Source: an uncultured Acidimicrobiales bacterium
Lineage (GTDB): Bacteria > Actinomycetota > Acidimicrobiia > Acidimicrobiales > SZUA-35
NCBI GenBank assembly: GCA_937958015.1
Contig: CALGOA010000216.1
Coordinates: 1 to 44,140, forward strand
Length of the DNA: 44,140 nt
Direction: 5' to 3'
Shown here piece by piece: positions 10,897 to 15,390 of the stretch; within the stretch, counting starts at the first letter, position 1, and each line of letters begins with the position of its first letter. The translations under genes were made by a program, and so were the position numbers. Below the pieces are notes generated by a model. The model made no database searches. It had not been told where the DNA came from and was given only the letters and a program-made list of their open reading frames with translations.

Positions 10897-11567
10897 GAAG
10901 CCGGGATCTGGGCGATGGCGTACTCGGCCAGCTTGCCCAGCAACCGTGCGCCCTCTGCCGCCGATGCTCCAGCGGGGTCGCCGAGCACCCCGTTGGGAGA
11001 GACCGCCTTGATGCCTCGCTCCCGCAATTCATCAATCAGGTCCGAGATTGGTTCGGCCCGGCCTGCGGTCGCCACGTCCATATTCACTCGATCGGCTGCG
11101 AGGTGCAGCATGATCGACGTCTCGGTGCGGCCGGCGTGAGCATCGGACCCTTCGATCATGGGCAGGATCGCAATCACCCGATCCCCTTCTGATCGCAGGA
11201 TTGGGATCGCCGATGCGAGGGCGGACCGGTTGCCGGCGTGTCCGCTGAGAAACACCACCGGACCCGACCATTCCCGGATCGATCGACCCAGTTCAACGAC
11301 GATGGCACTGAGGACGTCGTTGCCGACACTCATCGTTCCGTCGAACCCGGCGTGTTCGCCGCTGGCCCCGAAATTCACGACCGGTGCCACCAACACGGGC
11401 CTCACACCGCGATCGTTCAGACGGGCGGAAAGTTCATCGGCCCAGGCTGCTGCGATTCGGCTGTCGGTGTCCAGGGGAAGGTGGGGTCCGTGCTGCTCGG
11501 TCGCCCCCAACGGGATGACGACGAGTGGCCGTGAAGGCACGTCGGTGGTGAAGGCATCGCCCAGCAT
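10881..11567 (-). CDS. mftE: creatininase family protein, MftE-like
   Basis: LVVIPLGATEQHGPHLPLDTDSRIA...FGASGEHAGFDGTMSVG...VVFLSGHAGNRSAL...GSDAHAGRTETSIMLHL; co-directional with the mftF-like gene. Confidence 0.8.
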   Translation of the reverse strand: MLGDAFTTDVPSRPLVVIPLGATEQHGPHLPLDTDSRIAAAWADELSARLNDRGVRPVLVAPVVNFGASGEHAGFDGTMSVGNDVLSAIVVELGRSIREWSGPVVFLSGHAGNRSALASAIPILRSEGDRVIAILPMIEGSDAHAGRTETSIMLHLAADRVNMDVATAGRAEPISDLIDELRERGIKAVSPNGVLGDPAGASAAEGARLLGKLAEYAIAQIPASWSDR

Positions 11568-11603: not shown

Positions 11604-13031
11604 ATGATGCGATACAAACGTGTGATGGCACTCGGTGGTGTTGAGGTTGGAGCGGGCTCGGTTGGCAACGATGCCGGCGAGGGGGATGGTGCTGTCATCG
11701 ACCTGCGCGCCGCCATGAACGCCCGGTCGTCCGCTCGCGTGATCTCGGTTGAGGATCGCCGCTTCATGCGGGTATCACTCCACGGATCCCGTGCCGGCGA
11801 CACCATCAGCCAGGCCGATTGCACCGTCGTCGAGGCCGGTTTGCGAACCGCTCGTGAGCAGCGACTTCCAGTGATCGGCCACATCGTGGCGGCCGGTCCC
11901 GACGTTTCCGAAGGTCTGGCCCCGTCGGTTGCGTGGAGTCGGATCGCCAAGGAGATCGTGCGCTGCAGCGGCGTCATTCCGGTGATGCTCGTCGTCGATG
12001 GGCCCGTCCTTTCGGGTCCCTCATTTCTGCTGGGCCTCGCCGACGTCGTGGTGTTCACCGAAGATGCTTACTCCTACCTGTCCGGTCCTCGCATGGTGCG
12101 TGACTTCACCGGAACCCAGATCAGCGGAGATGAGCTTGGCGGCGCCGGGGTCCATCAGCGCAGCAGTGGACTGGCGTCGGCAGTGGTCGAAACCGCAGCC
12201 GACGGCGAGGACTACCTACTCGAGGTTCTGTCGTATCTCCCCGACGATGTCGACAGCCTCCCGGCCTCAATCGAAACCGACGACCCGATCGACCGGCCTA
12301 CCGCCGAGGCGGGTGAACTTCTTCCGACGACGGCGACGGGCAGTTATGACGTTCGCGACATCATCACCGAAGTGGTCGACGACGGCGTGTTCACCGAACT
12401 TCGGGCCCAGTGGGCACCAAACATCGTGACCGGCTTTGCCTCGATCGGCGGCTCGCCCGTGGGCATCGTGGCCAATCAGACCCAATCGATGGCGGGCAGT
12501 ATCGACATCTCCGCCAGTCAGAAGGGTGCCCGTTTCGTCGGGTTCTGCGATGCGTTCAACGTCCCGCTCCTCACGATGGTGGACACCAGCGGTTTCCTCC
12601 CCGGCAAGGATCTCGAATGGCGGGGGATGATCCGTCACGGTGCTCAACTGGCCTTTGCCTACGCCCGGGCAACCGTGCCCCGGATCGGCCTGATTCTGCG
12701 GAAGTCCTACGGCGGCGCGTACATCGTTATGGACTCGGTCAACATGGGCAACGACGTGATGCTCGCCTGGCCCACGGCCGAAGTGGCGGTCATGGGCGCC
12801 AAGGGCGCGGTCGAGATTCTTCACCGTGGAGCTTCTGAAGAAGAAAAAGCGGAGCAGGTCGCCACGTATGAGGCGACCTACCTCACCCCGTATCCAGCCG
12901 CTGAGCGGGGGAGTATCACCGCCGTCGTCGAGCCCGAGTTCACCCGGTTCGAAGTGGCCAGCGCCCTACAGATGCTGGGCAGCAAGCGGGAGAAGCTCCG
13001 CCCCCGGCGTCACGACAACATTCCGCTGTAG
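11604..13031 (+). CDS. acyl-CoA carboxylase carboxyltransferase subunit
   Basis: 475 aa; GIVANQTQSMAGSIDISASQKGARFVGFCDAFNVPLLTMVDTSGFLPGKDLEWRGMIRHGAQLAFAYA, LRKSYGGAYIVMDS. Confidence 0.9.
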   Translation: MMRYKRVMALGGVEVGAGSVGNDAGEGDGAVIDLRAAMNARSSARVISVEDRRFMRVSLHGSRAGDTISQADCTVVEAGLRTAREQRLPVIGHIVAAGPDVSEGLAPSVAWSRIAKEIVRCSGVIPVMLVVDGPVLSGPSFLLGLADVVVFTEDAYSYLSGPRMVRDFTGTQISGDELGGAGVHQRSSGLASAVVETAADGEDYLLEVLSYLPDDVDSLPASIETDDPIDRPTAEAGELLPTTATGSYDVRDIITEVVDDGVFTELRAQWAPNIVTGFASIGGSPVGIVANQTQSMAGSIDISASQKGARFVGFCDAFNVPLLTMVDTSGFLPGKDLEWRGMIRHGAQLAFAYARATVPRIGLILRKSYGGAYIVMDSVNMGNDVMLAWPTAEVAVMGAKGAVEILHRGASEEEKAEQVATYEATYLTPYPAAERGSITAVVEPEFTRFEVASALQMLGSKREKLRPRRHDNIPL

Positions 13032-13044
13032 CCCTGGACGCGGC

Positions 13045-13157
13045 GTGAAAAGGAAGAAAGCCGATCGCTCAGCGACCGGCTTTCAGACGCCGATTCTGGA
13101 AAGGGGGAAACCGACTCGGCGTCTTTTAGTTGCATCAAAGGGGGAGATGCACTAGGG
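13045..13157 (-). ncRNA. 6C-type sRNA candidate (two C-loop hairpins plus intrinsic terminator)
   Basis: Minus strand: TGCATC-TCCCCCTTT-GATGCA (13131-13151); AGACGCCGA-GTCGGTTTCCCCCTTTCCAGAA-TCGGCGTCT (13085-13124); GAAAGCCG-GTCGCTGAGCGAT-CGGCTTTC then TTCCTTTT (13048-13084). Confidence 0.72.
13048..13084 (-). terminator. intrinsic terminator of the sRNA candidate
   Basis: Perfect 8-bp GAAAGCCG/CGGCTTTC stem with inner TCGCT/AGCGA extension, then a T-rich tail on the minus strand. Confidence 0.75.
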
Positions 13158-13263
13158 AGATCCTACTTCAACCGTCCATATCTGAACAGTCGCGCGATAT
13201 GTGAAAGCTGTCATATCGGGTACCGCTGTCGGTTGAGGCCCCAAAATGCGCCTCGCGGCGGAC

Positions 13264-14640
13264 TCAGGACGGCAGGGTTCGAGCCAATTCGGCCGCAGTC
13301 GGTTCACGGCGCTCGCGGGCTTCGGGAGGCAGAAGATCGACGATCTTGTCCATCAGCACTGCCGTTTCGGCCTCGATATCGGTTGTCTGCGGGTGATACG
13401 GCACTCCGATCCGTACCTGCACGACCGGTGGATCGGCCAGATTCAGCATGAACGGCAGCTTGCGATTCCTGGGCCACGCCAGTTCTGTAGACCAAAGGCC
13501 GACGGGGACGATCGGGGCTCCCGAATCGAGGGCCAGGTTCACGGCTCCGAATCGGCCCTTCAACTCGGGGTCGAAGAAGTCGTGCCCACGAGGGATCGTT
13601 CCCTGGGGAAACACTGCGACCACTTCACCGGCGCGAAGGGCTCGGGCGGCCTCGCCCATCGGATCTCCACTTCGGTTCTCTCGATCGACGCGAATGGCAC
13701 CCATCGCCTGTGCGATCGGCCCCACCACTGGCGCATCAGTTACTTCCTTCTTTGCGAGGAAACGAACGGGTCGGTCCACCCGGCTCACGGCCTGGCCCAG
13801 AACGAGCGGGTCGATGTAGCTGCGATGGTTCGATGCCAGCAGCACGCCCGAAACGTCGCTGAGGGAGGCGAGTCCCTCTACATCGATGCGGATCCACGGA
13901 AGGAACTCGGGTCGGACTAGCTCGGCCATGACCCGCTGGGGCTCGATTCCCAGCGGTTTGGGCACGCCCGGCGGAGCGGTGAAGTACAGGACGGGCCAAC
14001 CGCTGAGTTTGGTGAATGCCCACAGTCGCGGGTCGGGGTTCACCGCGGTTGGGTAACCCACCATTCTGAGCATTGGCAGGTCGAAGATGCTGTCGGAGTA
14101 GGCGTAGCAGTCTGCGGGTTCGATCAGGTTCGCCCGACACCAGGCGGCGACCGAACGGGACTTGCCCCGATTCCAGACGAACTCCCCATCGACCGTGCCG
14201 TTGTAGGTGGTGCCATCGGTTGAGCGGTACTTCGTGGCCAGAACATCGTCGAGCCCGAGGAGGTCGGCGAAGGGTTTGACGACCTCGTAGGGGGTGGTGG
14301 TTGCCAGCACGACCTTGCGGCCGGCGGCTCGGTGGTCGGCGATCAGTTCCCGGGCGAACGGTTCGACCGCGTCGACCAGGGCAGGTGCCACCCGTTGCCC
14401 CGCCGCGCGCACGGCATCGACCGACCATCCTTTGGTAGCACGAACACCAAGCCGGGTGAGCGCCATCGACGGCAGGGTTTCCCCGATCACGTTGAAGACA
14501 CCGAACAGGATGCTTTCGCCCCGAATCGGCTTCTCGGGCAGGACGCCTTCGGCCCGCATCGCCGCCGAAATCAGCGGCCCGCTCGCCCCCTGGAGCAGGG
14601 TCCGATCAAGATCAAAGAACGCAGCTCCAGCCATACCCAA
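13264..14640 (-). CDS. HAD-IB hydrolase fused to 1-acyl-sn-glycerol-3-phosphate acyltransferase (PlsC)
   Basis: AAFFDLDRTLLQGASGPL (HAD motif I), YSDSIFDLPMLRMVGYPTAVNPD, then VLLASNHRSYIDPLVLG (NHxxxxD) and VVAVFPQGTIPRG. Confidence 0.9.
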   Translation of the reverse strand: MGMAGAAFFDLDRTLLQGASGPLISAAMRAEGVLPEKPIRGESILFGVFNVIGETLPSMALTRLGVRATKGWSVDAVRAAGQRVAPALVDAVEPFARELIADHRAAGRKVVLATTTPYEVVKPFADLLGLDDVLATKYRSTDGTTYNGTVDGEFVWNRGKSRSVAAWCRANLIEPADCYAYSDSIFDLPMLRMVGYPTAVNPDPRLWAFTKLSGWPVLYFTAPPGVPKPLGIEPQRVMAELVRPEFLPWIRIDVEGLASLSDVSGVLLASNHRSYIDPLVLGQAVSRVDRPVRFLAKKEVTDAPVVGPIAQAMGAIRVDRENRSGDPMGEAARALRAGEVVAVFPQGTIPRGHDFFDPELKGRFGAVNLALDSGAPIVPVGLWSTELAWPRNRKLPFMLNLADPPVVQVRIGVPYHPQTTDIEAETAVLMDKIVDLLPPEARERREPTAAELARTLPS

Positions 14641-14661: not shown

Positions 14662-15235
14662 TCGCCTCCAGGGGTGGCGAGGGCCGACTTACGTGCTGGC
14701 TCCGAGAGTGTTGTCCTCATCAGGCAGGTGGGTAGACCGATTGCGTTTGTTTAGGGGCTGGTTCCGTGGGTGTTGTCCTCATCAGGCAGGGTGGGTAGAC
14801 CGATTGTGTCTACTCACGGGCTGGTTCCGAGGGTGTTGTCCTCATCAGGCACCCTGCTATTCCCTCCGGGGGCCGTTCCGCCGGCCACAGAGGCCTCGGC
14901 TTCGCCGTGACACTAACCGCTCGTCTCGCTTCCCGGTTTCACACAGCAACGCGCTCACCCCTCCGGGAGGACAAGGGTGGTGCTGTGGTGGCCTGCCGGC
15001 CCGAGGCGAGGGCTGGATTGTTTGGACCGGTAGGTCTGACGGAGCGCATTGTGGAATGCCCGGAGGCTGCGCCTCCGTGGCGATGGAACGGCCCCCGGAG
15101 GGGCAAGCATCCCTGCCTGATGAGGCGCAATCGGTCTACCCAAAAGCGTGCGTTCACACAGACCCTTGGAGCCTGGCGAGAGTGAACGCAATCGGTTTAT
15201 CCACCTGCCTGATGAGGACAACACCCCTGGAGCCG
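14662..15235. repeat. Large imperfect inverted-repeat element with ~62-63-bp tandem units in its arms
   Basis: Left arm: gctgg(c/t)tccg(a/t)g(a/g)gtgttgtcctcatcaggca at ~14695, ~14757, ~14820. Right arm has inverted copies (cctgatgaggacaacacccctggagcc, 15208-15234). Perfect 18-bp inverted pair CCCTCCGGGGGCCGTTCC (14862-14879) / GGAACGGCCCCCGGAGGG (15085-15102). Confidence 0.8.
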
Positions 15236-15280
15236 CCTCGTTCCGTTGGAGGCGAGCGCAGGCAGGAAGCTGCCTCCGTG

Positions 15281-15390
15281 GAACGTGGCCGGAGCGACCC
15301 GACCTAGTCCGGGATCATGGAGCCCAGTGAACGCTCAGGATCGTGGGCGCGTTCGCCTCGTTCCGTTGGAGGCGAGCGCAGGCAAGAAAG
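15281..15390. repeat. Dispersed intergenic repeat, copy A
   Basis: gaacgtggccggagcgacccgacctagtccgggatcatggagcccagtgaacgctcag...gcgcgttcgcctcg...ggcgagcgcaggca, shared with two copies at 18757-18985. Confidence 0.85.

Follow-up and report, generated by a model that had tools for sequence, protein, structure and literature searches.

Small RNAs of the 6C/B11 type are conserved in actinobacteria and have strong phenotypes, and the question raised by the locus described here is whether an intergenic region of an Acidimicrobiales bacterium holds a gene of this kind and, if so, how its product would act. The window is the whole stretch of DNA that was analysed (44,140 nt), and the region of interest is a 232-nt gap between the gene for a HAD-IB/PlsC fusion protein (HAD-PlsC) and the gene for a carboxyltransferase (Table 1). 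Direct reading of the minus strand from 13151 to 13046 finds two C-loop stems (UCCCCCUUU and UUUCCCCCUUU), with five Cs in each of the two hairpin loops, followed by a separate strong terminator. HAD-PlsC ends about 110 nt upstream of this RNA on the same strand.

Table 1. Features of the C-loop RNA locus and its neighbours, in positions of the window
Feature	Positions	Strand	Details
HAD-IB/PlsC fusion, 458 aa	13264..14640	-	Pfam HAD and Acyltransferase; NCBIfam TIGR01490 above cut-off
Conserved upstream element TATGACAGCTTTCACA (TATGAnnnnnTTCACA)	13200..13215	-	Putative activator site (fixed spacing, rarity)
-35 candidate TGTTCA, then GAT	13183..13188	-	Direct reading; 17 nt to TAGGAT
-10 candidate TAGGAT	13160..13165	-	Transcription start expected near 13153
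Hairpin 1	13131..13151	-	TGCATC TCCCCCTTT GATGCA, loop UCCCCCUUU; perfect 6-bp stem
Hairpin 2	13086..13123	-	GACGCCGA..GG TTTCCCCCTTT CC..TCGGCGTC; loop UUUCCCCCUUU, 3' arm CC...UCGGCGUC
Intrinsic terminator	13046..13084	-	13-bp GC-rich stem 13084-13056, T-rich tail TTCCTTTTCA
Carboxyltransferase (biotin-dependent carboxylase type)	11604..13031	+	PF01039, E 5e-106; convergent with the RNA

The fold of positions 13045-13157 reaches -50 kcal/mol (z = -7.86), a stability equalled by none of 200 shuffles, and the pattern CCCCCTTT-N(10-40)-TTTCCCCC has a single match in the window, while 100 shuffles gave none. The initial annotation had described two perfect C-loop stems and a strong terminator with a T-rich tail; both hairpins are present and stem 1 is perfect, but stem 2 has small internal bulges near its loop, while the terminator was borne out, its 13-bp stem being the top terminator-like site of 12950-13300. 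The window gave no match to phage or plasmid sequences, and the search of the whole window with Rfam at gathering scores returned only a tRNA. Weak Rfam matches to mir-8356 and ctRNA_pGA1 lay far below the cut-off and were discarded as chance.

The spacing of promoter and terminator predicts a transcript of about 105-110 nt. The promoter that had been suggested, TGTTCA-17-TAGGAT, is present at 13188-13160 and its -10 falls within a layout conserved in congeners, where the corresponding hexamers are TAAGGT, TAATGT and TAGTAT, 7-10 nt 5' of stem 1, although a generic sigma-70 scan did not score it. The sequence upstream of the RNA has diverged among the four congeners except for the -10 and the 16-nt element TATGAnnnnnTTCACA, which ends 34, 34, 33 and 33 nt upstream of this hexamer in the four genus genomes, the window's own included. 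The genomes carry 1, 1, 2 and 1 copies of it, one always at the RNA locus, and the reversed control gave 0. From this fixed spacing and near-uniqueness per genome we infer that TATGAnnnnnTTCACA is a specific activator site. A CRP/GlxR operator was considered for the element, which has a TCACA half-site and a likeness to the CRP-type palindrome, and was rejected, because a count of only one or two copies per genome is evidence against a global CRP regulon.

A BLAST search identified the RNA in three congeners (G001, G002 and G003). The core of stem-loop 2, GACGCCGAGTCGGTTTCCCCCTTTCC, is invariant in the four congeners and beyond its own genome was found in only 3 of 84,980 species, all of them Acidimicrobiales MAGs; hairpin 1 is identical in G001 and G003, and the loop of G002 has one extra U. 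Across these genomes there is little or no variation in the loops and stem 2, whereas the length of the spacer between the hairpins, the terminator sequence, the flanks and the gene order vary, the terminator stem being rebuilt from different bases in each congener. The differences in spacer length are not multiples of three, which is evidence against coding; and because the two C-loop stems barely vary, covariation within the genus is nil. The RNA is missing from a fifth congener (G004), which also lacks an orthologue of HAD-PlsC and is 81% complete. The genus genomes are fragmented assemblies throughout, and the three named records are MAGs. A covariance model of the genus (R1) recovered the four congeners only, its other matches in the family being coding or C-poor, and the exact loop-pair pattern, searched in 395 genomes of the class, returned the window's own locus and three unrelated ones.

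Loci outside the genus were found by anchoring on HAD-PlsC orthologues and not on the RNA sequence, and in many Acidimicrobiales families these orthologues have tandem C-loop hairpins just upstream of the gene. A strict scan of up to 500 nt upstream, in which both loops had to contain at least five Cs and the stems at least 5 perfect base pairs, was positive for 19 of 38 orthologues; dinucleotide shuffles were positive in 12 of 1900 cases (0.6%) and background pieces in 2 of 495. This perfect-stem scanner was used instead of a loose constrained-fold scanner, which proved unspecific, and a reversed-sequence control was set aside because a reversed hairpin remains a hairpin and the control is therefore not independent. 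By eye we recognized others whose stems are bulged or whose loops have C4 runs (L072, L075, L077, L079, L081, L090 and L127), which increase the proportion. The loop core CGGUCCCCCUC does not vary among five sister genomes of the window's family, in which 12 of 17 base pairs have changed on both sides and 100% of cells are paired, as compared with 24-50% in slid controls. Intermediate forms, with the final C-loop hairpin doubling as the terminator, occur in families other than that of the window, and family f7 has three C-loop hairpins, the last one with this double role.

In the checked loci a divergent LysR-type gene lies upstream of the C-loop RNA (8 of 8 proteins scanned), and its product is possibly a dedicated regulator of the order's RNA. 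Reading by eye, we found the arrangement -35/GAT/17 nt/-10 upstream of the C-loop RNAs of relatives, and HAD-PlsC seems in the order's loci to be leaderless with a -10 of its own, so that the C-loop RNA would not simply be the HAD-PlsC leader. As to the layout of individual loci, the LysR-type gene adjoins the RNA in L080, L084, L088, L128, L132 and L134, a conserved TTGnnC-GAT promoter sequence lies between the two, and in several families the stretch from the RNA to the start codon of HAD-PlsC contains G5-G6 tracts (L086, about 1470-1490, L091, L078 and L127); these tracts could pair with the C-loops.

The tandem C-loop hairpins linked to HAD-PlsC that mark the order's group are also those of the window RNA, which in its genus lies downstream of HAD-PlsC or inverted, not upstream, and the best reading is that its position changed within the genus. 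A covariance model of the sister genera (R2) found near members only, its weak order-wide matches being C-poor or coding-like, and had no match on L001-L004; since R1 and R2 miss each other's members, it is layout and gene neighbourhood that tie the window RNA to those found across the order. Very probably it belongs to a group of Acidimicrobiales C-loop RNAs that Rfam does not recognize.

Directly upstream of HAD-PlsC, at 14665-14851, a 62-nt repeat (minus strand CCTGATGAGGACAACACC...) is present in three tandem copies that gave no Rfam match; they occupy the place where relatives carry the C-loop RNA, and a partial inverted copy lies near 15170-15230. Two 35-nt direct repeats, 97% identical and with an inverted repeat CGCCTC...GAGGCG, are found at 15234-15268 and 15354-15388.

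Membership of 6C (RF01066), as suggested by the initial annotation, was not upheld by the covariance search: the Rfam 6C model gave no match on the window at its gathering score (47 bits), none at E <= 10 on 301 bases of the locus, none at E <= 5 on 15 sister loci and none on HAD loci of other classes; in a whole-genome search with this model, 150 of 817 candidates were scored. The model is insensitive. It placed Corynebacterium glutamicum, where a 6C RNA of about 100 nt is established (PMC4046766), below its own cut-off, and therefore the negative result on the window is not the whole story. A third covariance model, made from 6C loci, was dropped with its alignment out of register. All seven of the 6C loci that we fetched have tandem C-loops, and a divergent HAD-IB gene adjoins six of them, all in Actinomycetia; the one such HAD-IB protein tested passes the TIGR01490 cut-off, like the window's HAD-PlsC, in agreement with the earlier statement that HAD-type genes sit near 6C RNAs. 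The window RNA thus has the customary HAD-IB neighbour, in an orientation unlike that of 6C. The Rho-independent terminator of B11 is its second C-loop hairpin (PMC12395582), and in 6C loci hairpin 2 often runs straight into U-rich sequence, whereas the window RNA uses a third, C-free stem. Of the proposed 6C layout, then, the two C-loop hairpins and a terminator stand, but the terminator is separate and RF01066 does not match; "divergent 6C-like RNA" is a fair description, but "6C RNA" is not demonstrated.

The window RNA could nevertheless descend from an ancestor that Actinomycetia and Acidimicrobiia share, and so be a true, though diverged, member of RF01066; this is compatible with our best explanation, and we give it slightly less than even weight. 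The two C-loop hairpins, the size close to that of 6C, the HAD-IB neighbour with its shared TIGR01490 assignment and the intermediate forms with a fused terminator argue for such descent, while the silence of the Rfam model on the window and the sister loci argues against it, as does the orientation of RNA and HAD gene, which diverge in 6C and share a strand in most Acidimicrobiales. Moreover, other classes have single-domain HAD-IB genes without an adjoining C-loop RNA, save for two unconvincing, unrelated-looking scanner matches, so there is no unbroken chain of linkage. A common origin of the 6C and the Acidimicrobiales C-loop RNAs is plausible but unproven, the alternative being two C-loop RNA lineages that coincidence or a common function has tied to one HAD subfamily; among the papers searched, none mentions both 6C RNA and Acidimicrobiia. 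The best reading is a 6C-like, Rfam-invisible C-loop small RNA outside formal 6C membership.

For its function we infer transcription, an activator, mRNA pairing and repression, and in the explanation as a whole, an autonomous C-loop small RNA that silences through G-tracts at ribosome-binding sites, we have considerable confidence. The gene would occupy 13160-13046 of the minus strand, and its small RNA would be about 105-110 nt long. Transcription would begin at a promoter of the sigma-70 type, aided by a protein that binds TATGAnnnnnTTCACA some 50 nt 5' of the start, and would end at the third stem. The two stems would present single-stranded UCCCCCUUU loops, each of which would pair with G-tracts of the AAAGGGGGA kind in or close to mRNA ribosome-binding sites and block ribosome entry, as for mycobacterial 6C/B11 and Xanthomonas sX13. 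The C-rich loops of 6C/B11 pair with guanine tracts adjoining ribosome-binding sites (PMC12395582), and at the G6 tract of eccB4 either loop suffices (PMC10470900); sX13 works through C-rich loops that include UCCCCCU (PMC3771888), the very string found in the loops of the window RNA. Action on G-tracts at ribosome-binding sites is, in our judgement, probable.

The search for targets returned no consistent excess of the 8-mer AAGGGGGA before ATG or GTG over its reversed form in four genomes (11 v 8, 12 v 7, 16 v 23 and 12 v 7). Only a longer 9-mer leaned towards an excess: it occurred before ATG 10 times against 3 for the reversed form, and the RNA locus is among those 10. Candidate targets, named from sequence reading, include CoxS-like, NuoD-like, cytochrome oxidase subunit III-like and sugar-transporter permease genes, and none is common to three or more congeners. 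This lack of clear enrichment would suit an RNA whose C-loops engage a protein or another RNA, as a sponge or decoy, instead of mRNA ribosome-binding sites, but several experimentally studied bacterial RNAs with such loops bind mRNA G-tracts and we consider a sponge or decoy unlikely. Separately, the CoxS-like (2Fe-2S small subunit) genes at position 1501 of L178 (G001) and L181 (G000) share AAGGGGGATCATG, a perfect match to 8 nt of the loops of the window RNA; its conservation is weak evidence, because the two proteins are 93% identical.

That the RNA is a gene of its own, as the silencing explanation supposes, is supported by its place in the genus. The genomes G000 and G001 have it downstream of HAD-PlsC, about 110 nt away on the same strand, as if the hairpins and terminator were the 3' end of the HAD-PlsC mRNA and only ended transcription or protected the message; in G002 and G003, however, it is inverted, with a PfkB-type kinase gene on one side, the carboxyltransferase gene on the other, and is separated from HAD-PlsC by a gene. 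The promoter and upstream element, moreover, lie between HAD-PlsC and the RNA in G000 and G001 and move with the RNA in G002 and G003, and the loops are better conserved than the terminator. With position and orientation that shift among congeners, the RNA looks like an independent transcription unit and not the 3' UTR of one gene, and a mere mRNA end is very improbable. A cis-acting leader, riboswitch or attenuator, as a structured RNA with a terminator at its end might suggest, hardly deserves consideration, as no minus-strand gene follows (the carboxyltransferase gene is convergent, and it is 1.5 kb to the next gene on the minus strand, which starts at 11567) and Rfam gave no match. Structure and autonomy are both observed; the minus strand from 13151 to 13046 is very probably a real small-RNA gene, and we are highly confident that it is a genuine autonomous one of the C-loop kind.

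A broader interpretation, which we put forward tentatively, is that C-loop small RNAs are old in Actinomycetota, common to Actinomycetia (as 6C) and Acidimicrobiales and tied to HAD-IB through the split of the classes, while loop number, C-run length and terminator fusion drifted until Rfam sees only one branch; the Acidimicrobiales RNA may have a dedicated regulator, either the divergent LysR-type gene or a factor that binds TATGAnnnnnTTCACA. A covarying Acidimicrobiales group that keeps to one gene neighbour and has no entry in Rfam would extend the 6C type of RNA to a second class, and suggests that the link of HAD-IB genes to C-loop RNAs is not accidental. It also offers a natural series (two C-loops with a free terminator, two with a fused terminator, and three) for testing which parts are essential.

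Compared with the upstream RNAs of the order (for example L070, L073, L084 and L132), the window RNA shares the C-loop hairpins, two or three in number, the HAD-PlsC neighbourhood and the arrangement -35/GAT/17 nt/-10, and with those of its own family the separate C-free terminator. The order's RNAs differ in lying upstream of HAD-PlsC, often beside a divergent LysR gene, and in stems unrelated in sequence; their loops are CGGUCCCCCUCGU in the sister genera, or C5-C8. With the 6C/B11 RNAs of mycobacteria, Corynebacterium and Streptomyces it has in common the tandem hairpins with C-rich loops, the length of about 100 nt, the intergenic position, the HAD-IB neighbour and the proposed action on G-tracts near ribosome-binding sites. 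It differs from them in its loops, which have five Cs with U-run flanks where 6C loops have six to eight Cs, in its loop-closing sequences and in its location on the same strand as, and downstream of, a fused HAD-PlsC gene, where 6C is divergent from HAD-IB. Xanthomonas sX13, which needs no Hfq and is a repressor of mRNAs whose G-rich motifs lie close to the start codon (PMC3771888), has three loops, an unrelated sequence and another phylum and genomic place; what it shares with the window RNA, namely stable stems, apical C-rich loops and the UCCCCCU motif, is a likeness of working principle only.
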